Shown here one piece after another: positions 1 to 64,000 of a stretch of DNA of 64,000 nucleotides. Numbering within the stretch: the stretch's first letter is position 1; each line of letters starts with the position of its first letter. The notes beneath the pieces are model-generated. The model searched no databases. It saw only the letters and a list, made by a program, of their open reading frames with translations, and had not been told where the DNA came from. Source of the DNA: Prochlorococcus sp. AG-409-P03 (lineage in GTDB: Bacteria; Cyanobacteriota; Cyanobacteriia; PCC-6307; Cyanobiaceae); assembly GCA_003215295.1 (NCBI GenBank), contig QCKN01000003.1:62001-126000 (forward strand), written 5' to 3'. A program made the translations under genes and the position numbers.

Positions 1-1028
1 ACATCCCAACTCCACGGGCGTCGTGTTGTAGCAGGTAGGTCAGCGCCTCTTTCTATTTGGTTAGGATTGTAGTTAGATGGTTTATGCTCGATGGGCGTAG
101 CATCTACTTTAAGAGGATCCTCTGGCACTAAGCTGGTTTCAGGTTTAACCTTAGGGTCTGTGGGTTTTCCTCTCCCTACTTTATACCATGGAACTCCTCC
201 TTTACTAATAGGTCTACCTGTTCTAGATATCCCTGGCTCTGTTGTGTATGGATAAGAGGGGTCCGTTCTATCTCCAGATGTCTTTCTATATTCTGGTTCC
301 TCCTCACCCCTAGCCATGGCTCTAGCTCTTGCGATATCTCTAAATGCTTTCACTGCTTCAGGATCACCAGCCAATCTTTTAGCTTGAGCTTGCTGCCTTT
401 CTCTCCTTTGGATCCTCTGTGAAGTTGTTTGGTTCATGTACTTTCCAGAGGTTCCAGTTTGCTGCTTTCCTGGCTGAAATCCGAACTCTGTCTTCTTTGT
501 TACTTTACCAGTATCTGGATCCACTTCTGTTCTTTGTACATCTCCATATCTTGAAGTAAATCCAGGAAGTGGCTTTCCTTGTCTCAGTTCGTACTCTCTA
601 GCAAACTCATCTCTTTTAGCAGCAGTAGGAGCGTTCATCTTCCATTGATCAGAAAAGGTGGGTGCCCCTTTCCCCAATCTTCTATCTGCCATTCTTCTTT
701 GTACGATATCCCAAGCTTTATCTCCTACTACTCTTTCTCCAGTGTTAGGATCAATCGCACCACCAACCATAGCATCACGCTTGGCTTGAGCTTTCATTGC
801 GGCTCCCATATAGCCTTTCCTATAACCGAAACGATAATCATCTGCTGTTCCGATAACATCTCTTTTGATACGCTTTGCTGTTGCTCCTAATGAGCCTCTA
901 AGCTTCCCCGCCTTGGTTTTTAGTGTAGAGGCTAATAATTCATCAATTCGATCATCAAATTCACTCTTAATATTTTCTTTAAGAGCTTGTCTTTCTGTAA
1001 GAATATCGTGTAATTTTTTCTTATCCAT
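1..1028 (-). CDS. Basic phage protein of unknown function, C-terminus cut by window edge
   Basis: The minus-strand frame is open from an ATG at 1028 to the left edge without a stop, so at least 342 residues are encoded and the end lies outside. It follows the neck gene directly (stop and start form TAATATG). The protein is rich in Arg, Lys, Gln and Pro with no recognised domain. Its N-terminus, MDKKKLHDILTE, ends in the L-x-E pattern preferred by T4-type prohead proteases, as in the small-protein cassette near 60 kb. A capsid-internal protein is therefore possible, but this is inference. The frame was translated by hand and is clearly protein-like. Confidence 0.75.
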   Translation of the reverse strand, partial: MDKKKLHDILTERQALKENIKSEFDDRIDELLASTLKTKAGKLRGSLGATAKRIKRDVIGTADDYRFGYRKGYMGAAMKAQAKRDAMVGGAIDPNTGERVVGDKAWDIVQRRMADRRLGKGAPTFSDQWKMNAPTAAKRDEFAREYELRQGKPLPGFTSRYGDVQRTEVDPDTGKVTKKTEFGFQPGKQQTGTSGKYMNQTTSQRIQRRERQQAQAKRLAGDPEAVKAFRDIARARAMARGEEEPEYRKTSGDRTDPSYPYTTEPGISRTGRPISKGGVPWYKVGRGKPTDPKVKPETSLVPEDPLKVDATPIEHKPSNYNPNQIERGADLPATTRRPWSWD

Positions 1029-2198: not shown

Positions 2199-3845
2199 TT
2201 ATGCCATCCCGCCTTTCACCTTAGCGAATGGGGTGAAGAGGAAGTTAGCGGTAGGCCCGATAAGTCTCAAGATTCTATAGTATCTTGAGGCTGGGGTTAC
2301 TGCTGCCTTACCATAGCGGGTGAGGATCCCCTTCCTGGGCTGGAAGTCGGTGGGATCAACGATGGTGGGTAGAGTCTGGAGTGGGATGTATGGAGAATAG
2401 ACAAAGCCTGAATCCATAGCATTGGCACCCTTATAACCCATCATAAGCTCATCTTCTGGGTACATAGGATCGACATAAAGATCAAACTGACCAGCAAGTT
2501 TACCCTTGTACTCAATGTTACTACCACCAACATTGGTGGGACCGTCAATCTTATCAACACCACCCTCAAGCTTTGCAGCAGAGTGAAGCATTGAAGCGAC
2601 TAGAGGTGAGCAGACAATCCAGTTACCAGGACCACGCATCGTAGTCTTGTAGATGTCCTGACTCATAAGATTAAGCATTGCAAGCAAGTTTGCATAGACA
2701 TGACCGACATGCTGAGGTGCAAAATCAAGAGCAGAAGTTGAGAAATCATATAAGAATACATTTTCGTTAGTTCCAGCAGTGTCTGTGCCTGTAGTGTAAT
2801 CATACAAGAAGTCAGCAGCAGGATCATTAGTTGCCATGTCAGGCTGAAGAACAAAGTTGTTCGAATTTGCCTGATCAAGGTTAGCCTTCTTCCACTTAGA
2901 TCCCTTGGCTTCAAGTTCACCATCAACATCGTATGAAAGCATACGAAGATCTTCGATAAGCTCACGGTCGATCTCAAGGCGAAGTTCCTTACCAAGCATG
3001 TCAGTAAGCTCCCGCTCAAGGTCAAGGTTGTGATAAGCCTTAAGGTCTTGAGAAGCCTCAAGAGTCCAAAGGGCTCTCATCTTACGAGTACGGGCTGCAA
3101 CAGGCTGCTGCTCGATGTGGAAGACCATTTCTGGAATACCAGAACCAGCCAAACGCTCACCAGCAGAGACATTGAATCCCATCATTCCGTGAGGACCAGA
3201 GCGAGTCGATCCAGTATCGTCACGACCGAGATCACCAACGGCAGGCCAAGAGGCAATCTTACCACCCATGGTAGCAGAAGCATAAGGACCATTAGCACCA
3301 GCACTCATGAAGAGAGCAGATGTAGTAAGATCTCTACCTGCAAGAGCAGAAGGTGACCAGCCATTGTTGGTTACAACAATGTTACTATTACCTAATGCAC
3401 TATCGGGGTCATGAGTTTGATCCATATCATAGTTTGCACCCCCAAAGATTGGGTTAGTGGTCAAGCCTCTGTATGTGAGTTGATACTTGTTGTAGATCTG
3501 CTGCTCAGAACCACCATCAACACGACTGTTACCAATGTAGAAGATCTGTGAAACAGGTCCCTGCATTGGCTGAACGCCAACAATATTGTTAGCAATTAGT
3601 TCAGGATAAACGCGACGAACAATAGGAAAAGCAAACTTCTGGAAAGTACCTAAGCGGCCTACGGTAGTTTGTGTACCACCAGTATCGACTGCTTCCTGAA
3701 GTTTTTCAGAAATAATCGACTTAGCTTGGTTCTCAAGAAGTTGAGCGGTTACTCTTCTTCCGTAGTCATCGCCTATCCCTTCAAGAACTGGTTCCCATTT
3801 TTCTACGACTTCATTCTTAATTCCGTCTGTGGGCATAATATCCAT
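2199..3845 (-). CDS. 23: Major capsid protein, T4 gp23-like
   Basis: The 548-residue protein is close in length to T4 gp23 and has the expected N-terminus, a conserved region around VGRLGTFQKFAFPIVRRVYP (residues about 62-81), and a C-terminal ASRYYRILRLIGPTANFLF region. It builds the hexameric capsid lattice. Scaffold lies directly upstream and protease upstream of that, the T4 order 21-22-23. The N-terminal 51 residues contain three [L/I]-x-E sites (LLE, ISE, LQE) that could be cut by the protease during maturation. A strong terminator follows the stop. Confidence 0.95.
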   Translation of the reverse strand: MDIMPTDGIKNEVVEKWEPVLEGIGDDYGRRVTAQLLENQAKSIISEKLQEAVDTGGTQTTVGRLGTFQKFAFPIVRRVYPELIANNIVGVQPMQGPVSQIFYIGNSRVDGGSEQQIYNKYQLTYRGLTTNPIFGGANYDMDQTHDPDSALGNSNIVVTNNGWSPSALAGRDLTTSALFMSAGANGPYASATMGGKIASWPAVGDLGRDDTGSTRSGPHGMMGFNVSAGERLAGSGIPEMVFHIEQQPVAARTRKMRALWTLEASQDLKAYHNLDLERELTDMLGKELRLEIDRELIEDLRMLSYDVDGELEAKGSKWKKANLDQANSNNFVLQPDMATNDPAADFLYDYTTGTDTAGTNENVFLYDFSTSALDFAPQHVGHVYANLLAMLNLMSQDIYKTTMRGPGNWIVCSPLVASMLHSAAKLEGGVDKIDGPTNVGGSNIEYKGKLAGQFDLYVDPMYPEDELMMGYKGANAMDSGFVYSPYIPLQTLPTIVDPTDFQPRKGILTRYGKAAVTPASRYYRILRLIGPTANFLFTPFAKVKGGMA

Positions 3846-3847
3846 AA

Positions 3848-4483
3848 TTAATTTCTCCTAGTTTCGTTGAAAGGCATAAACGCCATAACATCTTCGGTTA
3901 AGAACTCATTATCATTTTGAGTTTCAACCGTAGTAGATTCAGAGTCTACTTCCTCTGATATAACTAAAGCTCTTTCGTTTGATTTGAAAGGCTTTTCTAC
4001 TACACCTTCAAGATGCTGTACGCTTTCCTGAAGTGTCTGATTTTTCTCTTCGATTAATGCTAACTTGTCATTGTATACTTTGATAGTATTTTCTAACTTA
4101 GCATTCTCCATAAGAGCTTCGTTAAGCTCATGAATGATTAGCTGATTCTCTTCAGCAATCTCTTGAGCTTCTTGTGATACAAGAGCGACAGCAGACTCGT
4201 TATCACTTTCAGAAAGCTCAATAGCCATGAGTGACTTTAAGTACTCAAAGCTTTTGGCATTTTTAAAAGTATCATCTTCTGCTTCTAATTCTCTTATAGC
4301 TTGTTCTTTAATTGAGTCCATCTTAAGACGAAGGAAAGAATAAACTTTATCCTCCAAATCTTGAACTCTTTCGTTGACCTGCTCAGTTATAACTGTATCA
4401 ACGATGTTCGCAATATCCTCTAGTGCTTCCTCACTTAAATTTTCAGGAAGTAAAGAGGCGAGATTTTCCATTTTATTACTCAT
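3848..4483 (-). CDS. 22: Prohead core scaffold protein, T4 gp22-like
   Basis: The 211-residue protein is acidic and almost wholly helical, with a long coiled coil from about residue 40 to 160. It sits between the protease and the major capsid gene, exactly where T4 has gene 22. Such proteins form the core around which the capsid assembles and are then digested by the prohead protease. Only two bases separate it from the capsid gene. A late-promoter-like octamer (4505-4512) lies 21 bases before its ATG. The call rests on position, length and composition. Confidence 0.85.
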   Translation of the reverse strand: MSNKMENLASLLPENLSEEALEDIANIVDTVITEQVNERVQDLEDKVYSFLRLKMDSIKEQAIRELEAEDDTFKNAKSFEYLKSLMAIELSESDNESAVALVSQEAQEIAEENQLIIHELNEALMENAKLENTIKVYNDKLALIEEKNQTLQESVQHLEGVVEKPFKSNERALVISEEVDSESTTVETQNDNEFLTEDVMAFMPFNETRRN

Positions 4484-4553: not shown

Positions 4554-5831
4554 TTATATACCTGTTCTATCCTTAAACCTTTTCCAGGGACTGTCTGGAA
4601 CCGCACCTGTTCCCGCAGTAGCATCTTTATCCGCTTCAAAAGATTTCATTATGTCAGCAGCCAACCCACGCAGAATAGGTTTCGTTTCTGGGGCCTCGCC
4701 CCCTTCTCCACTTTTCATTTTAGCAGCCCACTGATCGGCCCTCTTCAGCTTTGGTGATTTCTTTATCGAACCTCCGTGAGCAAGCATCTTTGCGTCCTTA
4801 TCGCTTAATCCTTTTTTAGCTTTTTTTTTAGATTCATTTAATTTTTGATCCAAGGAAGAGCGTAAAAGAGCATAATCAGTGCTATCGTTTTGAGAACTTG
4901 GAAGTAAACTTTTTACCGCTGCGCTTACTTTACCAAAAACACTTTTCTTTTTTGGTGCGGGTTTAGGTTTAACAGCTCTTTGAGACTTAATGTTTGAAAG
5001 AATCTCACTGCCTCTACGAGCAGCCCTTAGGTGCTCTGGCTCACCCGTATGAGGGTTTCCACCATGACCACCAGTATACTCCTGTACTTTTACTGTTTCA
5101 GTAGGTGTTTCTGCATCGTCATAAGTTCTGTGCTTTCTTTTGCGAGCATTAGGATTGTTGTGCCCGAACTTAGCATCACCTCTAAACAAGTGTAATGGAT
5201 CTTTTTTACCACCCTTTTTGGTGGTTTTTTCAGTAAGCTTTTGCTTAAGAATAGTAGTAAACACCTTTTCCTTAGCTGCTTTATCTAAAGTATCTTTAAC
5301 AATGTTTTCTACTAAATCGGATTGAGTGGACTCTGCAAGAGTGGGGAAAGCACCTCTAGTGGATGGATCAGCAACAAGGTCGAAAGTAACCAGCTTAAAA
5401 TCTTCGTTAACTTTCTTTGTTCCATTGTCACCTTCAGAAAGAGTACCCATACCTCTAGAAGAAATACCAATCTTAACACCCCCTTCAACCAAGGCTTGTG
5501 CTACTTTACCTGCGGGAGTATTAAGAAGCTCACACTCACCTATAACATCGTTGCCTTTAACATGAAGGTTTGTAATAAGATGAGAAACATTGCTTAATTT
5601 AACAGAGTCATGGCTTGGGTGATCTAGTTCGCCCATCAATCTTCTCTCATTTAAAGCATCAGTAAGCTTAGTGACTTCACGCTCCAATAAAGCCTTAGAA
5701 TACACTCTCTTATTATTGTTTGCTTCATCTGCTCTTTGGAAAACCCCACGAAGTTTTTTGCATGTCTGACCGTTCTTTTCCTCGGTTAGAACTTCCATTT
5801 CTTCTAAAATAAATGTATCTACTAAAATCAT
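4554..5831 (-). CDS. 21: Prohead maturation protease (gp21-like) with long basic C-terminal extension
   Basis: Residues about 25-170 form the prohead serine protease domain. MGELDHP carries the likely catalytic His71 and GISSRGMG the Ser124/125. T4-type enzymes cut scaffold, capsid and internal proteins after [L/I]-x-E. At 425 residues it is about twice the length of T4 gp21 (212). The extra C-terminal half, from about residue 200, is Lys-rich and low in complexity (for example KPKPAPKKK). It may bind DNA or the core, or be removed by self-cleavage; this is inference. The gene lies between core protein genes and the scaffold, as in T4. Confidence 0.9.
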   Translation of the reverse strand: MILVDTFILEEMEVLTEEKNGQTCKKLRGVFQRADEANNNKRVYSKALLEREVTKLTDALNERRLMGELDHPSHDSVKLSNVSHLITNLHVKGNDVIGECELLNTPAGKVAQALVEGGVKIGISSRGMGTLSEGDNGTKKVNEDFKLVTFDLVADPSTRGAFPTLAESTQSDLVENIVKDTLDKAAKEKVFTTILKQKLTEKTTKKGGKKDPLHLFRGDAKFGHNNPNARKRKHRTYDDAETPTETVKVQEYTGGHGGNPHTGEPEHLRAARRGSEILSNIKSQRAVKPKPAPKKKSVFGKVSAAVKSLLPSSQNDSTDYALLRSSLDQKLNESKKKAKKGLSDKDAKMLAHGGSIKKSPKLKRADQWAAKMKSGEGGEAPETKPILRGLAADIMKSFEADKDATAGTGAVPDSPWKRFKDRTGI

Positions 5832-5832
5832 A

Positions 5833-6225
5833 TTACTTGTGCTCCTTATACTTTTCGAACTTTTTGGACTTCTGCTTTCCGTGTTTTCTCATGGTCCTAA
5901 CTGAATGTGCTTTAATGCTTGAAAACTCGGAGGATGGAGTAGAACTTCCAGGAGTAAACCCTTTGGCTACTCTACCGCTGCAAGAGGGAACTTGAGACTT
6001 TTGCTTTTTCCTTTGCTTGGTAATAACATAAATTCTTTTGGATCCTTTTGTTGACATCATTTGTCCAGGATATCCAGCGCAAACACCTTTTTCTAAGGTA
6101 TCGTATACCTTAACTTTTGATTTCGTAGCAGTGGCTTTTCCTGACTTATTTAAAGTGTTGTACTTACCTCTACCTGAAGGGTATCTTTTCCCTTTTGCTT
6201 CAAGAATTTGATCCAGGATGTCCAC
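5833..6225 (-). CDS. Small basic prohead-associated protein
   Basis: A 130-residue, very Lys/Ser-rich protein with a GTG start that shares one base with the stop of the upstream gene (TAGTG). The N-terminus, MDILDQILE, ends in I-L-E, a consensus site for T4-type prohead protease, and the rest is strongly basic. Position just before the protease gene suggests a prohead core or internal protein, comparable in place to T4 gp68. No known domain was recognised. Confidence 0.7.
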   Translation of the reverse strand: MDILDQILEAKGKRYPSGRGKYNTLNKSGKATATKSKVKVYDTLEKGVCAGYPGQMMSTKGSKRIYVITKQRKKQKSQVPSCSGRVAKGFTPGSSTPSSEFSSIKAHSVRTMRKHGKQKSKKFEKYKEHK

Positions 6226-55386: not shown

Positions 55387-55536
55387 GTGCTTACCTAACT
55401 TTCTCTTCGACTCAGCAATCCTAATTCGCTTGAGTTTTTTCATAAAAGCATTACGCTTTTCCCAGTACCGAGGATCTTTATTCCTAGGAAGTCTTCGCCG
55501 CAGTTTAGTTACCCCAGTAATGTCTTCCAGGAACAT
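55348..55536 (-). CDS. Small very basic protein, overlapping both neighbours
   Basis: A 62-residue protein, rich in Lys and Arg (LRRRLPRNKDPRYWEKRN). It overlaps the end of the upstream paralogue gene by 32 bases and the convergent glycosyltransferase gene by 39. The composition looks protein-like and it fills what would otherwise be a gap, but no good ribosome binding site is seen. No family recognised. Confidence 0.5.
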   Translation of the reverse strand: MFLEDITGVTKLRRRLPRNKDPRYWEKRNAFMKKLKRIRIAESKRKLGKHLNRDRKPTFCHF

Positions 55537-56494
55537 ACTCAGGGTTACAAACCCCTAATGCATCAGGTGCTCTGACAAATCTAGGAGTGCCAGCACCACC
55601 TTGACTTATATCAACAGATATTTTTTGTCCGATAGCGTCAACTAAAACCTGAACATCTCCTGGGTCATCTTGATCTGAGGAATATGTTCCAGGTTTAAAA
55701 CCAAGAACGCCTCCATTAGTTACTCCTATATTTGTAGGAATATATCCACCATTAGGGAAATGGTCTGCAAGACAACTTCTATGTCCACCCCATTTGTTAC
55801 TAGCAGCTAATATTTTAATTCTTCCTTGTGATTGGGTCAAAGCATGCCAAAATTGAGGCTCATTTATATTGACCCAATCCATTGGATCTTGAGGTGATGC
55901 ACTAACACCACAGTTAGTATGATTTGCCATAGTGTAATTGTATCCATCACCCTGATATGGTTCTAGTGCCCCAAATCCCCCAGATTCTGCCATTAAAGGG
56001 TAAGTACCCATGTCAGATTCATTATCAATACCATCATCCCAAAGCCTTCTGTAGTAATAAGGTTGTGTGGTCGCAATTATTCCTTGGACACTCATCGTTC
56101 CAGCAGCAGGAGTTCCATAAGTTTGACCCATTTCATCAGCACTAACTGAATATAGTGTAAATCTTTGAGGTTGAATGTATGAGGAAGTCTCATACCAGTC
56201 CCAAACTTTTCTTTTTGTTACGATAACACTGCGAAGCTGGATAAGGAGTTGGGTATGCATCCAATCTAGTTCAGCGTTCATACTACTTAGAGTTATGTCT
56301 CCTTCAATCATTCTAAAGTAGGGAACTCGCTTATAAGCAAATGTTAGTTCTTGCGTTTCTTCATAATGTGGGCCTGAAAAATACCCAACACCAGAAACAC
56401 CTGATACTGGACCAGTACTAGAAAAACTTAAATATCCAGGTGAAAACGCTGTGTTTATTTTTTTTGATACGGGACTTGTTACTACTGTTGCCAT
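55505..56494 (-). CDS. Tandem structural paralogue 4 of 4
   Basis: A 329-residue protein very close to the preceding paralogue: same N-terminus with GPVSGVSGVGYFSGPHY, a TFAYKRVPYF segment, RFTLYSVSADEMGQTYGTP near residue 105, a PYYYRRLW motif, a DVQVLVDAIGQ helix and the C-terminal RHYWGN. The family is not one I recognise. Beta-rich composition and tandem arrangement suggest virion surface or fibre proteins. It follows the previous copy by three bases. Confidence 0.65.
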   Translation of the reverse strand: MATVVTSPVSKKINTAFSPGYLSFSSTGPVSGVSGVGYFSGPHYEETQELTFAYKRVPYFRMIEGDITLSSMNAELDWMHTQLLIQLRSVIVTKRKVWDWYETSSYIQPQRFTLYSVSADEMGQTYGTPAAGTMSVQGIIATTQPYYYRRLWDDGIDNESDMGTYPLMAESGGFGALEPYQGDGYNYTMANHTNCGVSASPQDPMDWVNINEPQFWHALTQSQGRIKILAASNKWGGHRSCLADHFPNGGYIPTNIGVTNGGVLGFKPGTYSSDQDDPGDVQVLVDAIGQKISVDISQGGAGTPRFVRAPDALGVCNPEYVPGRHYWGN

Positions 56495-56497
56495 AAT

Positions 56498-57610
56498 TTA
56501 ATTACCCCAATAATGTCTTGATTTACTATATTCAGTATTTGTTAAACTTTGCCAACGATTAAAGTAAGGGTGTTGTAACAAAGGACCAACAAAGTAATCA
56601 GATTCAAGAGCTACAGAACCATCATTCCATTGTTTTGCAATAACATCAGCAATACCGTCAACTAATAGTTGTACATCTGCTGTATTATCTTGTTCACTAC
56701 TGTAAGCTCCTAATTTGTTACCAAACATATGATTATCTACAATAGCATTCGTGCTAAAAAACGGTCCCGTCTGACCAGGAGGAAGACATGTATCATCCCC
56801 AGTCCAGTTAGGATAGCCGTATTCGGTTTGAACTTCGGAATCCCCTAGCGTTTCACCTGCAATAGTGTACCAAAAATTAACATCATTTAAAACGATAGGT
56901 CCGATAAAGAATGGTGGATGCGTAGAGTTTGGGTACTCAGGACCAATTAAAGCATCTTTATAGCAATCGGTTGGTCTATCATTAGCGAAAGGTCTATAGC
57001 TATATGCTTGGAGTGCGTAGCCTGGACTTGTAACTCCAGGAAGTCCTCCATACCCTGGATGGTTTGGATGGGGTCTTAATGCTTCTGCATACCTCTGGGG
57101 AGTTACGATCCCGTTAGTTGTCCAAGTTGCACTATCAGTATCATCTTGAGTTGTCCATGGTCTTCTAAAATACCAAGGCTGTGTTGTTAATATATCTCCT
57201 CTAACAGAAAGTGTCCCAGCGGCTGGAGTTCCATAAGTTTTTCCACTCTGATCGTCTGCACTTACTGAATAAACCGTAAATCTTTGTGATTGCGTATAGG
57301 AAGAAGTTTCATACCAGTCATAAACTTTTTCTTTTGTTACTTTGGGTCTAATTGTTAGCAACAAATGTGTGCCCAAGTAGTGAGGAGCAAGAGTAACTGA
57401 ACTTAAACTTATTGTTCCTTGATTAAATTTAAATCGAGGTACTCTTTTATAGTAAATATCTAAAGTTTGTGTCTCAACATAGTGAGGTCCAGAAAAGTAC
57501 CCAACACCAGATACACCAGAAACAGGTCCTGTACTGGAAAAAGTTAAATATCCAGGTGAGAATGCTGCTGCTGATTTCTTTGCTACAGGTGTTCTAACTA
57601 ATGTTGCCAT
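56498..57610 (-). CDS. Tandem structural paralogue 3 of 4
   Basis: A 370-residue copy, the longest, with a 40-residue insertion in the middle (Pro/His/Gly-rich, around residues 165-215). It shares GPVSGVSGVGYFSGPHY, YYKRVPRF, RFTVYSVSADDQSGKTYGTP, a DVQLLVDGIADVI helix and the RHYWGN end with copy 4, so this pair is the most recent duplication. No enzyme motif seen. Confidence 0.65.
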   Translation of the reverse strand: MATLVRTPVAKKSAAAFSPGYLTFSSTGPVSGVSGVGYFSGPHYVETQTLDIYYKRVPRFKFNQGTISLSSVTLAPHYLGTHLLLTIRPKVTKEKVYDWYETSSYTQSQRFTVYSVSADDQSGKTYGTPAAGTLSVRGDILTTQPWYFRRPWTTQDDTDSATWTTNGIVTPQRYAEALRPHPNHPGYGGLPGVTSPGYALQAYSYRPFANDRPTDCYKDALIGPEYPNSTHPPFFIGPIVLNDVNFWYTIAGETLGDSEVQTEYGYPNWTGDDTCLPPGQTGPFFSTNAIVDNHMFGNKLGAYSSEQDNTADVQLLVDGIADVIAKQWNDGSVALESDYFVGPLLQHPYFNRWQSLTNTEYSKSRHYWGN

Positions 57611-57622
57611 AAAAATCTCCTA

Positions 57623-58465
57623 TTAAGTCCAATCGTGTCTTTGCCAGCGGTAAGAAAATAATGTAACCTGTTCGCCTGTTTGAGAGAACAATCCACCCAT
57701 ATTATATTCGCTACCAATTGTATCGGTTCCTATAATTACATCATCTACAAGATCTTGACCATAGGAGTAAGGACCTGTTTTAGGTGCAATTTCTGCCCAC
57801 ATATTCGCTGTATACCCTGATTCTCCATCAATAGTATCCGTAGCGAACATAGATTTAAAATCTCCCCAAACAAGTTCTGCATCTACAGGGTTACCCACTC
57901 CACCTGGACCAGGGGTACTGTGATTATCATTATAAGCTTGATAGTTATAGCCGATTACAGTATCATCCCTTTCTTGGTGCTGTCCTTCAATCCAAGGCTC
58001 TCTCTTATAGAATTTTTGGCTAGTATAAACTCTACCGACAGGCCCATAAGTACTGGAAAATACCGATAATCCACAATCTGATGGAGTTTGATTGCAATAA
58101 GTGTTTCCTTGAGAATCCGCACTTGCAGCTTCTATGGAGAATCTTTGTCCTTGGACATAAGATGATGTTTCAAACCACTCATAGCTTTTTCTTGTATTTA
58201 CATTTGCGGTCGCTCTAACCATAAGAACAGAACCTGTATTAGTTGCTGTCCAGGTTGAACCGCTTAAACTTACAACAACGCTACTTAAGTAACCGTAGGG
58301 AACTCTAACATAGTCGTAGTTTAGTGTTTGTTCCTGAATAAAGAATGGACCAGAAAGTGCTCCAACGCCAGAAACACCTGAAACAGGTCCAACTCCCGAA
58401 CTCATAAATAAACCTGCTCCAGTGGCGTTTGTAGGTGCTGAGGTTCTAATTAGTGGTGATGCCAT
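57623..58465 (-). CDS. Tandem structural paralogue 2 of 4
   Basis: A 280-residue copy. It shares GPVSGVSGVGALSGPFF, NYDYVRVPYG, RFSIEAASADSQGNTY, FYKREPW, a DDVIIGTDTIG segment and a C-terminal RHDWT. Two Cys (CNQTPSDC) sit at the position where copies 3 and 4 have GTPAAG. GGAGACTTAC precedes the ATG of this gene. Role unknown. Confidence 0.65.
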   Translation of the reverse strand: MASPLIRTSAPTNATGAGLFMSSGVGPVSGVSGVGALSGPFFIQEQTLNYDYVRVPYGYLSSVVVSLSGSTWTATNTGSVLMVRATANVNTRKSYEWFETSSYVQGQRFSIEAASADSQGNTYCNQTPSDCGLSVFSSTYGPVGRVYTSQKFYKREPWIEGQHQERDDTVIGYNYQAYNDNHSTPGPGGVGNPVDAELVWGDFKSMFATDTIDGESGYTANMWAEIAPKTGPYSYGQDLVDDVIIGTDTIGSEYNMGGLFSQTGEQVTLFSYRWQRHDWT

Positions 58466-58529
58466 GTAAGTCTCCTAAATTGTTCTCCTAATATATCTAG
58501 TGTTGTCTAGTCTTATTTTGTGTAAATTA

Positions 58530-59396
58530 TTATGTCCAGTTGTGATGTGTATAATTATACATATTAACTAAAACATTGTGCATCCCAGTGCCGTGATTTA
58601 CTGTACTTACTGGTCTACCTGCTCCATCTGTTAAATGACCATCCTTAAATAGTCTTCCAATTTCATCTGTTGTAACACGAACATCATCAACTTTATCTAA
58701 CTCTACGCGATATCCACCAAATTTAAGACCAAGTTGGGGTTGTGATTCAACACCAAGAAGTGTGCCTTTTGCTCCCATCATAGTGTTCCAAGAATGTGCG
58801 TGTTCAGGTGTCATAAGATCCTCTAATGTTTGGTACTCATTTAAAATAACAGGAATTGAAACTCCGTTATTCGAGGAAACGGAAACAGCAACAAAGTTCA
58901 TCGCTCCTCTAGAACTCTGAGTTTGTATAACATCTCTACCCTCCACATAAGGCTTTCTAGAGTAGAATGGATGGTCTGTAATCACACGACCCCTAGGACC
59001 AAAAGCACCCGCAGTTAATGAACTTCCGTATGTTTCCCCGTTAGCGTCTGCACTTACCGATTGCACAACAAAATCTTGCGCTTGTTGGAAACTTGAAGTT
59101 GCATAAAATACATTACTACTTACTGCGGTATAGTGACAATCAGCAACAATAAGAAGGACGGTTTTATCAATTTTTCCTTCCATAGTTATACTGCTTAATC
59201 CTACCGACATAGAAGATACGCTTCCGATAGGAACTCGTAAGTAGTTATAATTCAGTGATTGAGTCTCAATAAACCAGGGACCTGAAAGATCTCCAAGGCC
59301 AGAGGTATCACCAGAGGTTGCAAACGATTGAGTTGTTTGATCTATTCCTCCTGGGTATGCGTTATAATATGGTACTGCTGCGGCTGTGCTAGTCAT
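58530..59396 (-). CDS. Tandem structural paralogue 1 of 4
   Basis: The 288-residue, most divergent copy: DLSGPWFIETQSLNYNYLRV (about 36-55), FVVQSVSADANGETYG (about 107-122), FYSRKPY, DDVRVTTDEIG and C-terminal HHNWT. CGGAG lies before the ATG and a hairpin with a TAAATA motif further upstream, so this gene probably heads the four-gene operon. Confidence 0.65.
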   Translation of the reverse strand: MTSTAAAVPYYNAYPGGIDQTTQSFATSGDTSGLGDLSGPWFIETQSLNYNYLRVPIGSVSSMSVGLSSITMEGKIDKTVLLIVADCHYTAVSSNVFYATSSFQQAQDFVVQSVSADANGETYGSSLTAGAFGPRGRVITDHPFYSRKPYVEGRDVIQTQSSRGAMNFVAVSVSSNNGVSIPVILNEYQTLEDLMTPEHAHSWNTMMGAKGTLLGVESQPQLGLKFGGYRVELDKVDDVRVTTDEIGRLFKDGHLTDGAGRPVSTVNHGTGMHNVLVNMYNYTHHNWT

Positions 59397-59646: not shown

Positions 59647-59967
59647 TTATTTCACTGGCTCCCAAGTTAAGTATTGTCTTCCTCTACCAAAATTCATAAA
59701 ATTAGGTCTACCTGTAGATTTTCCTTTTTGTGTTCTTGCTCCTGCCATAAAAGCTAAGTTTCTTGCTTTTTGGGTTGTTGTTACTTTTTTTGCTGCTGCT
59801 AACCTATCAAGCACATTTTGCATATTTTTTATAGATTTTCTAGGCATAGGATGATGTCTAGTACTTTTTAGTGCATCAACATCTAAAACACCCTTAACCT
59901 CTCTTCCTTCTGGATCTATTATAGGTCTTTCAATCAACAGACCATAAATTTTACGGTAACTTGACAT
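59647..59967 (-). CDS. Small basic protein with [L/I]-x-E leader
   Basis: A 106-residue basic protein. Its N-terminus MSSYRKIYGLLIE closely resembles that of the 135-residue protein two genes upstream (MNYFERIYCLLVE); both end in L-x-E at residue 13. The rest is Lys/Arg-rich (AAAKKVTTTQKARN, RTQKGKSTGRPNF) with no named domain. It overlaps the upstream gene by 17 bases. Candidate capsid-internal protein processed by the prohead protease (inference). Confidence 0.7.
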   Translation of the reverse strand: MSSYRKIYGLLIERPIIDPEGREVKGVLDVDALKSTRHHPMPRKSIKNMQNVLDRLAAAKKVTTTQKARNLAFMAGARTQKGKSTGRPNFMNFGRGRQYLTWEPVK

Positions 59968-60283
59968 CTCTTGACCTTATTTGCTTTCTTGTCCTTGATT
60001 GAGGTATTAGGGGTCTTAACCTAATTGCAGTATCTAAATTTTGTGAAGATTGTTTCCTTAATTTGTCAGCAACCGTTCGCATTGTAGCAGCGTGTAACTT
60101 ACCAATGTAACTTCCTGAACCTTCTCCTGCGACTGCCTTTTGTATAAGTTCTCCTGCTTTTCCTCCTTGTTTCCAAGATTTAGTAAAAGCTTTCCTGTAT
60201 GCGCGTGTGGCTCCAGACAGCTTCCTTTCAGGCTGTTCGTCTGCCTTCACAATCTCAGTTAATAACTTATCTTCCCAGTTCAT
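59951..60283 (-). CDS. Small basic protein with MNW leader
   Basis: A 110-residue basic protein starting MNWEDKLLTE, with L-T-E at residues 8-10. The remainder is helical and Lys/Arg-rich (RAYRKAFTKSWKQGGKAGEL). ATGA overlap with the upstream gene shows coupled translation. It belongs to the cassette of short proteins sharing the leader. Function otherwise unknown. Confidence 0.7.
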   Translation of the reverse strand: MNWEDKLLTEIVKADEQPERKLSGATRAYRKAFTKSWKQGGKAGELIQKAVAGEGSGSYIGKLHAATMRTVADKLRKQSSQNLDTAIRLRPLIPQSRTRKQIRSRDVKLP

Positions 60284-60687
60284 TTTACTCCCCCCGTAGC
60301 TCTTTGAGTACGAGTCGCTACTGCTGGGGTTGGTTCAGTTTTTTCCCCGCTAACAGTTCGTGTCCTACCCATTGCTGCATAATGTTTTCGCTGTGCTGTT
60401 GTTAAGTTTATTGCTGTAGGAACAATATCCTGTCCAGATGTTCGTCGTGTTCTTTTAAGACTTTTTGCTGTAGCTTCTTCATCAGATGTGCCTTTGGCCT
60501 TTCTTTTTTCTATTCTTTGTCGTTTTAATATTGCTGCCAACTCATCTCTATTGTGCTGTGTTTCGGGTCGCCTTCCACTCACATGAATTGGATCACCTTT
60601 ATCATCTGTAGAATATACAGGCTTAGTGTCCTCTGGACCCCTCCTCATCTCTACTAGTAAGCAATAAATTCTTTCAAAATAATTCAT
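60280..60687 (-). CDS. Small basic protein with MNY leader
   Basis: A 135-residue protein starting MNYFERIYCLLVE, with L-V-E at residues 11-13. The rest is Arg/Lys/Thr-rich with no domain (KRQRIEKRKAKG, RRTSGQDIVP). Overlaps the genes on both sides by ATGA. Candidate internal protein of the cassette. Confidence 0.7.
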   Translation of the reverse strand: MNYFERIYCLLVEMRRGPEDTKPVYSTDDKGDPIHVSGRRPETQHNRDELAAILKRQRIEKRKAKGTSDEEATAKSLKRTRRTSGQDIVPTAINLTTAQRKHYAAMGRTRTVSGEKTEPTPAVATRTQRATGGVK

Positions 60688-60839
60688 TTTGTTTTCACTT
60701 TTTTAACACATCTCTCATAACGAGACTTTGCAGCTTTTGACCAGTTTTTTCTTCCTGGACCTGCGGTGTTCTCAATGGAGTCTGTACATATAGCCCATGG
60801 ATTTTTTACTCTTTCAAGAAGTTTTTGTTGCCATTTCAC
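60684..60839 (-). CDS. 51-residue basic protein with GTG start
   Basis: A frame of 52 codons begins with GTG at 60839, overlapping the upstream stop as GTGA, and ends overlapping the next ATG as ATGA. The protein starts MKWQQKLLERVKNPWAICTD and continues basic (RKNWSKAAKSRYERCVKKVK). The L-L-E at residues 7-9 and the K-W start match the leader family. The perfect overlaps at both ends are strong support. Confidence 0.75.
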   Translation of the reverse strand: MKWQQKLLERVKNPWAICTDSIENTAGPGRKNWSKAAKSRYERCVKKVKTK

Positions 60840-60988
60840 TTCTTTTTCTTACGCTCCTGTGCCCTATCCCATACTTTCAGCATAGAAGGAGACAGTCTAT
60901 CACGAATACCTCCTTTACCTTTTATTACAGGTTTTGTATTTTTGGCTGGGTCCAAAACATATTCAAATAAATTCTTTTGCCAATTCAA
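60836..60988 (-). CDS. 50-residue basic protein with TTG start
   Basis: A frame of 51 codons starting with TTG at 60988, three bases after the upstream stop. The protein starts MNWQKNLFEYVLDPAKN and ends in basic QERKKKK. The M-N-W start and L-F-E at residues 7-9 match the leader family, which decides for the TTG start. Ends by GTGA overlap with the next gene. Confidence 0.75.
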   Translation of the reverse strand: MNWQKNLFEYVLDPAKNTKPVIKGKGGIRDRLSPSMLKVWDRAQERKKKK

Positions 60989-60991
60989 TAT

Positions 60992-61345
60992 TTAGCCTCT
61001 CCTGCCTCTCCTACCATGAGTTCCAGATCGTTCCCTAGCAGTCGTATCACCCATCTGCCCCAATTCTGCATCATCAAAATGGGAGTGTGGTTTATCAACA
61101 ATGGCTCTCATACCTGGGACTGGTCTAGTGGTCGCTCTTCTTGTTGGCTTTCCTGTATAAGTCCCACCTTTACCAGACTTAGCTGGTACAAATCCCTTGC
61201 CTACTGTAGTTGTAGCACCCTGTTTCTTACCACCACGCTTATATGTTATGGTCTTGGGTCTTCTACCATGTTTGGTTTGCTTTAGTCTTTGTTTTTTTAA
61301 TTCACCTTCAAGTATAATTTCAACAACTTTTTCTTTCCAATTCAT
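60992..61345 (-). CDS. Basic Gly/Arg-rich protein with MNW leader
   Basis: A 117-residue, strongly basic protein starting MNWKEKVVEIILEGE, with I-L-E at residues 11-13, then a Lys/Gly/Thr-rich middle (KHGRRPKTITYKRGGKKQ) and a GRRGRRG C-terminus. One base separates it from the upstream membrane protein gene. Such composition suits a DNA-binding internal protein; no domain is recognised. Confidence 0.72.
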   Translation of the reverse strand: MNWKEKVVEIILEGELKKQRLKQTKHGRRPKTITYKRGGKKQGATTTVGKGFVPAKSGKGGTYTGKPTRRATTRPVPGMRAIVDKPHSHFDDAELGQMGDTTARERSGTHGRRGRRG

Positions 61346-62336: not shown

Positions 62337-62344
62337 TATTTATT
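62337..62344 (-). promoter_or_regulatory. Possible late promoter before 102-residue gene
   Basis: The minus strand reads AATAAATA (7 of 8 bases of the T4 late consensus), then TTAGGAG and the ATG 14 bases downstream. It overlaps the last bases of the upstream gene. Confidence 0.4.
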
Positions 62345-64000
62345 TAATGATGGTGAGATCTATAATGTCTTCTGTATCTGGTTCCATCAGTCCTAGGAAG
62401 ATCCTGACTTCTACTGTTACCAAAGAATTGAGATTTAGCCGCATCAGCACAAGCTTTCCAAGAATCACTATTAAGATTAGCTTCTCCACATTTTTCTTCT
62501 TCGTATTGTAAAAGAGCGTCCCACTGATGCCAATCCTCATTTGCCCACTTGGAGGTCCACCCTGCGGCAGGTTGGCCTCTTCTAGCATCAGGTCCTAGAT
62601 GGTGGTATCTAACAATATCCGAAGGTGAAAATTTAGCAGGATCACTCCACCAATAGGAACCCGCATGAACCCCTTCGGCTTCCCACTGCATCATGTATAA
62701 AGCAGCAATCCAGAAGCTATAGTCACAAGCGCATTGTTTACTCCATTCTCCCATACCTGCTTTGTAAACCCAGTGTTTTTTGCTATCGTATTCAGCATCT
62801 TCAGGCATATTTGGGTATTGTTCACCATCTTCAAAAGTTCTAGGATTAATCCAAGTAGCATCTAAGGGGCCTGGGACAAAATCACAACTTTCATGCCTTT
62901 GGTTCCAGCTAGAGGGTCTAACCTCAGGACTCCGATATGCGCTTCTATCAGGATTAGTATAAGGCATATGCCATGATCCAGGAGGGATCGCGTATCGGCG
63001 TTGTCTACTAGATGCATTAGGACTTATATTCTTATAAGCTCCGCTCCATAATTTGCCACAACTAATTTCATATGCTTCTATAAAAGCAAAACCTTCAGGT
63101 CTACCATTGGTTTCTTCTGGATCAGGATAATCATACCTTTGAGGACAAGAAGGAGGTCCATTGTACCGATTAGCCCGTCCACTGGTTCCTTCTTCTGCTG
63201 TACCCGCGTTTTGGATCATTCTTGCATAAAATGCTTGAGCATCAATCCAATAGGGTTCTCTAATTTGTAAACAGCCATGCGCTGTACCATTCATATTTAA
63301 TCCTGGTTCAACGACAACATCATCAACCACCAGCTTTGGAGGCCATGGATCGCCTCTCAAACCATAATGACCATTATTGGAACAAGGACCACCCTCTCCA
63401 TTAACACCTTGTCCAGGAGGTCTATTGGGCCAACCTTGATTGCATGGCCTCTCATTCATCTGGCTTTCTGGTCTTAATAAAGCTTGTAAGACTGTCATCT
63501 GATTTTCCAGATGCTGTTGCTGCGCTTCAAGATCACCCTTTTTATCACCATGATGTATTCCAAATGGATTAAATCCTTGTCCATGGGTTCCACCATTTAA
63601 TGTCATACACCTAAAAGGAATACAATAACCTAAATTCCAGTCATGAGAAGTACCAGGAGGAATATCACTTGAACCGTACCAATAATCAGGAATTCGTGTT
63701 CTATCATCATCTTCCTCCTTACAGGCAGCTTCGCAAGCACTTTTACTACGATGCACACATTCGCAATTATCACTAGGTATGCACTTTTTACAGTACCAAC
63801 TTTCATCCCATTGAACTTCCGTAGGCCCTGGACCCCCACAACCCATGCCAGGACCACACCCTACAACAACCCATCTACCATGCTTATAACAACACCATTT
63901 TTTAGCTGTTGTTCTATCTGGGGCTGGTTCATCTGCTGCAAACCAACCAAAAGATTCGGTTTCACTACCCCAATTTTTGTTTGTAGTTTGCTTTTCACTG
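62344..64000 (-). CDS. Cys-rich protein with lysozyme-like motifs, N-terminus beyond window
   Basis: The frame is open from the stop at 62344 to the right edge; the ATG at 63846 is internal, since coding-like sequence with KKWCCYKHGRWVVVGCGPGM continues upstream. At least 551 residues are encoded. The N-terminal visible part is Cys-rich (WYCKKCIPSDNCEC, ACEAACKEE), suggesting small disulfide modules. Further on, HGCLQIREPYWIDA resembles the core of i-type (destabilase) lysozymes, and SPSDIVRYHHLGPDARRG their conserved C-terminal H-x-G-P element. The catalytic Glu would be in VVVEPGLN. The motifs are about 200 residues apart, so an insertion or a different fold is possible. Endolysin or virion muramidase is the inferred role. 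Confidence 0.6.
   Translation of the reverse strand, partial: SEKQTTNKNWGSETESFGWFAADEPAPDRTTAKKWCCYKHGRWVVVGCGPGMGCGGPGPTEVQWDESWYCKKCIPSDNCECVHRSKSACEAACKEEDDDRTRIPDYWYGSSDIPPGTSHDWNLGYCIPFRCMTLNGGTHGQGFNPFGIHHGDKKGDLEAQQQHLENQMTVLQALLRPESQMNERPCNQGWPNRPPGQGVNGEGGPCSNNGHYGLRGDPWPPKLVVDDVVVEPGLNMNGTAHGCLQIREPYWIDAQAFYARMIQNAGTAEEGTSGRANRYNGPPSCPQRYDYPDPEETNGRPEGFAFIEAYEISCGKLWSGAYKNISPNASSRQRRYAIPPGSWHMPYTNPDRSAYRSPEVRPSSWNQRHESCDFVPGPLDATWINPRTFEDGEQYPNMPEDAEYDSKKHWVYKAGMGEWSKQCACDYSFWIAALYMMQWEAEGVHAGSYWWSDPAKFSPSDIVRYHHLGPDARRGQPAAGWTSKWANEDWHQWDALLQYEEEKCGEANLNSDSWKACADAAKSQFFGNSRSQDLPRTDGTRYRRHYRSHHH

Follow-up and report, generated by a model that had tools for sequence, protein, structure and literature searches.

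In phage T4, the capsid-targeting sequences (CTS) are propeptides of 10-19 residues which are cut after L/I-X-E, where targeting needs residues 4 and 7 and cutting needs residues 8 and 10 (PMC9026906). The T4 proteins Ip1-Ip3 carry a common leader on unrelated bodies, are injected, and each blocks a different GmrSD (type IV restriction) enzyme (PMC12373910). In SPN3US, gp53 and gp54 have an identical 15-residue start followed by diverged bodies (PMC5694885), and in P1 an N-terminal signal directs the defence-blocking Dar proteins into the head, a signal that a foreign protein can ride as well (PMC9024508). Herein a cassette of small genes in an uncultured marine phage is compared with these systems. 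The window, namely the whole stretch of 64,000 nucleotides that was analysed (G000:C3:62001-126000), is part of the 130,604-base phage contig C3 (IMGVR_UViG_2716884398_000001). The C3 phage is T4-type, with an S77 protease, a gp23 major capsid protein and a T4-like portal and terminase, and its best capsid matches among isolates are cyanophages which are only about 30% identical. The contig sits in a Prochlorococcus bin (G000; 1.36 Mb, 47 contigs, probably a single-cell genome), whose RNA polymerase beta subunit shares 95% identity with that of Prochlorococcus AG-402-P18; despite the bin, the phage is far from the known Prochlorococcus phages, and Prochlorococcus is its putative host at most. 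A close relative, G001 (129,906 bases, capsid 95% identical), was read whole and used as the full-length comparison genome.

The first-pass annotation had described six consecutive genes at window positions 59647-61345, each starting with a short leader that ends in [L/I]-x-E, and our analysis agrees with it in all six coordinates and all six motifs. The genes lie on the minus strand, where neighbours overlap by 4-17 bases or leave a 3-base gap, and their leader reads M-N-x-Y/W-x-R/K-I/L before it terminates in [L/I]-x-E. Just past the window end there are four further leader genes, which have the cleanest leader consensus. These features are as follows, with a stroke after the Glu of the motif:

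60992..61345, minus strand: leader protein 1, 117 aa, MNWKEKVVEIILE/GELKKQ..., net charge +19; leader codons 61307-61345
60836..60988, minus strand: leader protein 2, 50 aa, TTG start, MNWQKNLFE/YVLDPAK...; leader codons 60962-60988
60684..60839, minus strand: leader protein 3, 51 aa, GTG start, MKWQQKLLE/RVKNPWAICTDS...RYERCVKKVK; leader codons 60813-60839
60280..60687, minus strand: leader protein 4, 135 aa, MNYFERIYCLLVE/MRRG..., net charge +11; leader codons 60649-60687
59951..60283, minus strand: leader protein 5, 110 aa, MNWEDKLLTE/IVKADEQ..., net charge +13; leader codons 60254-60283
59647..59967, minus strand: leader protein 6, 106 aa, MSSYRKIYGLLIE/RPIIDPEG...; leader codons 59929-59967
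G000:C3:128051-129355: second cassette, with the leaders MKAYEKIYRFLTE, MDSYDRIYDLLTE, MNSYERIYNLLTE and MRYQERLLSLVTE

The two non-ATG starts in the window cassette (TTG at 60988 and GTG at 60839) are ATG in both G001 counterparts, and the counterpart of leader protein 2 begins with MHWEQKILE. Leader proteins 4 and 6 (PSSM score 31.8 and profile score 27.2, respectively) have no counterpart in G001, where the slot of leader protein 1 is occupied by a different leader gene of 71 aa. Searches of the window cassette proteins against Pfam and PHROGs gave no match above the cut-off. As to the surroundings, the adjoining positions 55505-59396 encode a run of four proteins that resemble one another, begin with GPVSGVSGVG-like sequences, include a pair of close paralogues and are possibly fibre or decoration proteins; window positions 62344-63999 hold most of a 564-aa Cys/Trp-rich protein (whole at G000:C3:124344-126038) of a kind that G001 has too, and a small ferredoxin-like protein with a CVEVCPVDCIHEAEP motif is found at G000:C3:45303-45563.

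The motif by itself was rejected as evidence, for its base rate is 23%: of the 166 genes on the phage contig, 38 have [L/I]-x-E near the start, in the same zone as in the leaders, and a search for the motif alone would thus miss the distinctness of the cassette. The unusual part is the extended common leader together with the clustering and the unrelated bodies. In an unsupervised comparison of all N-termini of the phage contig (residues 2-13), 38 similar pairs were obtained as against 8 in shuffles, and most of the similar pairs come from two clusters, namely the window cassette and C3:128051-129355. The same comparison, run blind on an 18-kb region of T4, picked out only the internal protein genes (IPII-IPIII, IPIII-IPI), and the same test on the Methylophilales phage Melnitz and the Prochlorococcus phage P-HM2 gave no [L/I]-x-E family. 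When 88 leader proteins are aligned, the consensus MNxYxRIYxxLxE stands in the first 13 columns and almost nothing is conserved beyond; the mean identity over the whole alignment is 5%.

The position of the motif was then read from leaders that had been recognised on residues 2-8 only, so that the cleavage site played no part in the recognition; reversed-sequence controls for the leader profile returned no leader. Among 79 unique leader proteins the motif ends exactly at residue 13 in 61, where 0.95 are expected, and in the subset that was not chosen by the scan patterns it does so in 23 of 41 (0.45 expected); as the 79 proteins are interrelated and 11 of them seeded the profile, such figures are strong contrasts rather than independent p-values. 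Nearly all of the exceptions (16 of 18) have the motif at residue 9, 10, 12 or 14 instead, and the residue following its Glu is variable, Ala being the most frequent. Tyr occupies residue 4 in 44 of 69 leaders, while residue 7 is I, V, L or M in all 69. A second kind of leader, here called W-type as distinct from the Y-type, has Trp at residue 3 and the motif often at 9-10, so that the residue rules of T4 map onto it inexactly.

A profile search for the leader in related phage contigs, which had been suggested as a check, revealed cassettes in about 20 contigs. These came from scanning IMG/VR with two leader patterns, which gave 11 and 84 stretches, followed by profile scans and gene calls. 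The longest cassettes, in contigs g005 and g004, have nine and seven leader genes in a row, respectively. Most marine contigs have two cassettes, one Y-type (MNSYERIYNLLTE-like) and one W-type (MNWQNRIYESLTE-like), on either side of genes for lipoproteins and membrane proteins, and the terminase gene follows downstream of this arrangement. A second lineage (g018-g021, g026 and g011) has its leader genes immediately upstream of the S77 gene. A near-identical, slightly stricter leader pattern had zero matches in 257 billion bases of cellular genomes. Among 50,697 isolate phages the leader peptides gave only a chance-like internal match near a gene end in Synechococcus phage B23, and the NPWA/CTDS cargo family matched nothing.

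Head genes, among them the protease that would remove such a leader, are encoded at the other end of the window, where two further genes with the motif are also found:

2199..3845, minus strand: gp23-type major capsid protein, K-L-Q-E/A at the propeptide end
3848..4483, minus strand: scaffold or core protein in the gp22 position, 15 [L/I]-x-E where 6.1 are expected
4554..5831, minus strand: gp21-type prohead protease (S77), 425 aa
5833..6225, minus strand: conserved basic protein in a gp68-like position beside the protease, MDILDQILE/AKGKR...
3..1028, minus strand: part of a basic protein, whole at G000:C3:61664-63028, 454 aa, MDKKKLHDILTE/RQAL..., net charge +36

The assignment of a gp21-type protease to 4554-5831, made before any database search, holds with an E-value of 2e-25 to Peptidase_S77 and of 2e-52 to the PHROG head maturation protease. 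Both S77 and gp23 are present on all five leader contigs of at least 74 kb, and S77 is present in 3 of 25 contigs that match the loose pattern but are mostly without strong leaders, both being small samples. The freshwater contigs L060 and L107, which looked as if they had leader genes and no S77, were considered as a possible counter-example and set aside, L107 being apparently a fragment that misses the gp21 region; as judged on N-terminal resemblance, the terminase, the portal and the 600-aa gene block recur in it. In each of the five lineages compared, hydrophobic-x-E closes the capsid propeptide, and the protein in the gp22 position has the motif at two to three times the expected number. 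Moreover, the window protease has a basic tail, of net charge +23 over 224 aa, which starts after K-L-T-E at residue 201; C3, G001, g004 and g002 all have such a tail, which follows immediately on an [L/I]-x-E at about residue 200, while g011 and g018 are without it, and its length varies by lineage from about 75 to 300 aa. This hyperbasic tail looks like fused cargo.

The two further genes had been placed under the same leader pattern in the first-pass annotation. For 5833-6225, the N-termini in five lineages are MDILDQILE, MALLIDILAE, MNIFETIRE, MRIIDLLQE and MRILQLIIDS, and the comparison of these five retains [L/I]-x-E in four; the gene is a conserved one on the protease side rather than cassette cargo, and its product, which stands apart from the cassette, is possibly cut by the protease. 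The gene that is truncated at position 1 does bear the motif, and in full it encodes the 454-aa basic protein listed above, which is found only in the nearest relative and is possibly a further substrate. A 943-aa protein encoded after the tail tube gene (G000:C3:54595-57426), which matches no family, starts with MNYFTQLLE; this start is kept in relatives (MNYFEELLE, MDYFTELLE), while the remainder is 26% identical in g002.

The leader behaves as an exchangeable module. In the clearest case, MKAYEKIYRFLTE/DTPSKTEV in C3 and G001 corresponds to MSWKNTLLSLLE/DTPSKTEI in g002, where the homology of the bodies begins at the predicted cut. The HGADVFHKKLGN body stands behind MNAYERIYTLLTE in G001 and behind MNWQNRIYESLTE in L111, and the CTDS...RCVKKV body, to whose family leader protein 3 belongs, follows W-type leaders in C3, g004, g003 and L111 and a Y-type leader (MNTYQRIYDLLTE) in contig g021 of the other lineage. 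The family of leader protein 5 has homologous bodies behind three unrelated N-termini, in which the Glu of the E10 column is invariant. In some reading frames the leader even occurs two or three times in frame, namely G001:48665-49231 (L022:8665-9231), L077:10785-11393, g005:2020-2877, g005:2874-4034 (L225, same coordinates) and g004:69757-70530 (L211:9757-10530); some of their modules are separate genes elsewhere, and the body of leader protein 2 recurs within the fused protein in L077. These frames resemble several cargo genes fused into a polyprotein. Cargo turnover is rapid, as only 5 of the 10 C3 cassette genes have a full-length counterpart in G001, compared with 148 of 156 other genes.

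The bodies, which had been noted as mostly basic, are so without exception: all 69 leader bodies are net positive, compared with 33% of other small proteins. Their K+R content is 24% of residues, hydrophobic residues are few and Cys is almost absent, and the mean charge reaches +0.145 per residue, against +0.03 to +0.06 in the T4 internal proteins. In a charge-hydropathy comparison, all 72 bodies tested lie on the disordered side of the line, as do 89 of 191 other small proteins, while the mature T4 internal proteins are about neutral on this line. An AlphaFold model of leader protein 5 has a helical leader, a flexible break at residues 16-18 and a helical hairpin; a fold search with it gave no informative match and no E-value below 0.8. 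No match was found between the bodies and IPI-III or other described internal proteins, and both their charge and their hydropathy lie clearly outside the range of the T4 proteins. Among the 88 leader proteins, essentially none matched an anti-defence family, the one weak PADLOC match being to JetC (E 0.001), and a single one, outside the window, matched DUF6321; the C-terminal part of one cargo protein in g011, also outside the window, matches several PHROG families without an assigned function.

Altogether, comparison of the sequences makes it probable that the leader, of 9-13 residues, acts as a capsid-targeting propeptide in the way of the T4 CTS and is removed by the gp21-type protease. 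This proposal was already made in the first-pass annotation and now gains strong comparative support from the register of the motif, the exchange of bodies, the co-occurrence with gp23 and S77 and the outcome of the blind test on T4. The sequences themselves show the common leader, the fixed motif, the exchange and turnover of bodies, the co-occurrence with the protease and the extreme basicity; from these we infer how the proteins would be targeted, cleaved, kept in the head and ejected, and what the cargo would do. The amphipathic start of the leader would bind the prohead core, by which the protein would be carried into the forming head. There the phage's own gp21-type protease would cut after [L/I]-x-E and release a small, strongly basic mature protein that would stay with the packaged DNA. 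The leader is an interchangeable module behind which bodies are gained, lost, swapped and fused, so that the cargo sets differ between relatives. Most of the cargo would probably be DNA-associated internal protein, and some or all of it may enter the cell with the DNA.

Two explanations dispense with this role of the leader. It might be an uncleaved docking tag for the tail, the portal or a host target, with an incidental [L/I]-x-E; in favour of this, the leader is predicted to be helical, and the C3 phage genome has the motif by itself in many genes. We hold this improbable, because the motif keeps a fixed register with every leader type, stays when the remaining leader is replaced, as in the invariant E10 column, and marks the very site where body homology begins in the DTPSKTE family. 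The other explanation, that these are ordinary paralogues with a slowly changing N-terminus, or that a DNA or RNA element overlies the start codons with no targeting role, finds some footing in g005 and g002, where leader codons differ at only 0.22 and 0.26 of comparable positions as against 0.56-0.57 expected, an excess of likeness which points to recent DNA copying there. But in C3, g004 and especially g003 the codons differ at 0.42-0.55 as against 0.56-0.59 expected, so it is the amino acids that are kept and not the DNA; besides, the same body behind different leaders makes simple divergence insufficient, and we regard this explanation as very improbable.

The remaining alternatives concern what a capsid-targeted, cleaved cargo would do. 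An injected anti-defence arsenal, whose bodies would mostly inhibit restriction or other host defences after delivery in the manner of T4 Ip1-Ip3, has its precedent in those proteins (PMC12373910), which block type IV restriction enzymes and so make the reading a possible one, and the fast cargo turnover between close relatives speaks for it too. We nevertheless find it rather unlikely, since usable matches to functional families, anti-defence ones included, were found for none of the leader proteins, the bodies are hyperbasic and uniformly on the disordered side, unlike the near-neutral T4 proteins, and the single body that was modelled forms a plain helical hairpin, for which the fold search gave no informative match. 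A set of internal proteins associated with the DNA is no less likely than such an arsenal. That the cargo is protamine-like or counterion-like, neutralising or ordering the packaged DNA, we take as a serious possibility a little short of an even chance: any basic body would then suffice, so that the bodies could be unrelated yet uniformly basic, and the positive charge of every body, the K+R content, the mean charge per residue and the basic protease tail after [L/I]-x-E in cassette-bearing lineages are all consistent with it, although body motifs kept across lineages (CTDS...RCVKKV, MSGATRAYRK) would be needless for pure charge. A bolder reading, which we put forward tentatively and consider unlikely, takes the standard leader as an exchangeable adaptor for open-ended, lineage-wide cargo loading, with cassettes of nine or more genes and multi-leader polyproteins which the prohead protease would cut into several hyperbasic, mostly disordered proteins; these would coat the packaged DNA like protamines and be ejected along with it; if true, this would be a function not described for T4-type phages.

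A leader that probably works as a capsid-targeting propeptide would extend capsid-targeted cargo beyond the T-even phages, whose hosts are enteric bacteria, to aquatic phages that are uncultured. Its pattern has the specificity needed for finding internal proteins in metagenomes, as the strict form picks out 11 viral stretches, and about 70 nameless small genes become candidate head cargo, each with a testable cut site. The leaders may also serve, just as they are, as tags by which proteins could be loaded into phage heads, and cargo that coats DNA, if it does so, would be a protamine-like solution in tailed phages.

Compared with known systems, the P1 Dar proteins are alike in that an N-terminal signal, the packaging signal of DarB, loads proteins into the head; they differ in being large and in showing neither a common leader consensus nor signs that a conserved cut follows the signal. 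The head propeptides of SPN3US and phiKZ (proteases gp245 and gp175) are alike in a gp21-related protease, a short motif ending in Glu and internal and ejected proteins with removable N-termini, but there the motif is A/S-x-E, the propeptides are often over 100 residues, the cargo is much larger, and a cassette of small basic proteins is absent. The internal proteins IPI, IPII and IPIII of T4 (MKTYQEFIAE) share with the leader set a short leader with an [L/I]-x-E end on small proteins with unrelated bodies, S77 gp21 and gp23 in the same genome, rapid cargo turnover and, for the Y-type, an aromatic residue 4 (Tyr4) and a hydrophobic residue 7. Unlike in T4, the leader sequence is different, comes in two types (Y and W) and usually has 13 residues instead of 10, so that the Y-type would be cut three residues later; up to nine consecutive genes stand here against three in two loci, with fused multi-leader proteins besides, and the bodies are far more basic, predicted to be disordered, and show no homology to the T4 internal proteins that we could find. 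To sum up, the leader set is real and very probably CTS-like in its working, as a larger and more modular form of the T4 internal proteins.
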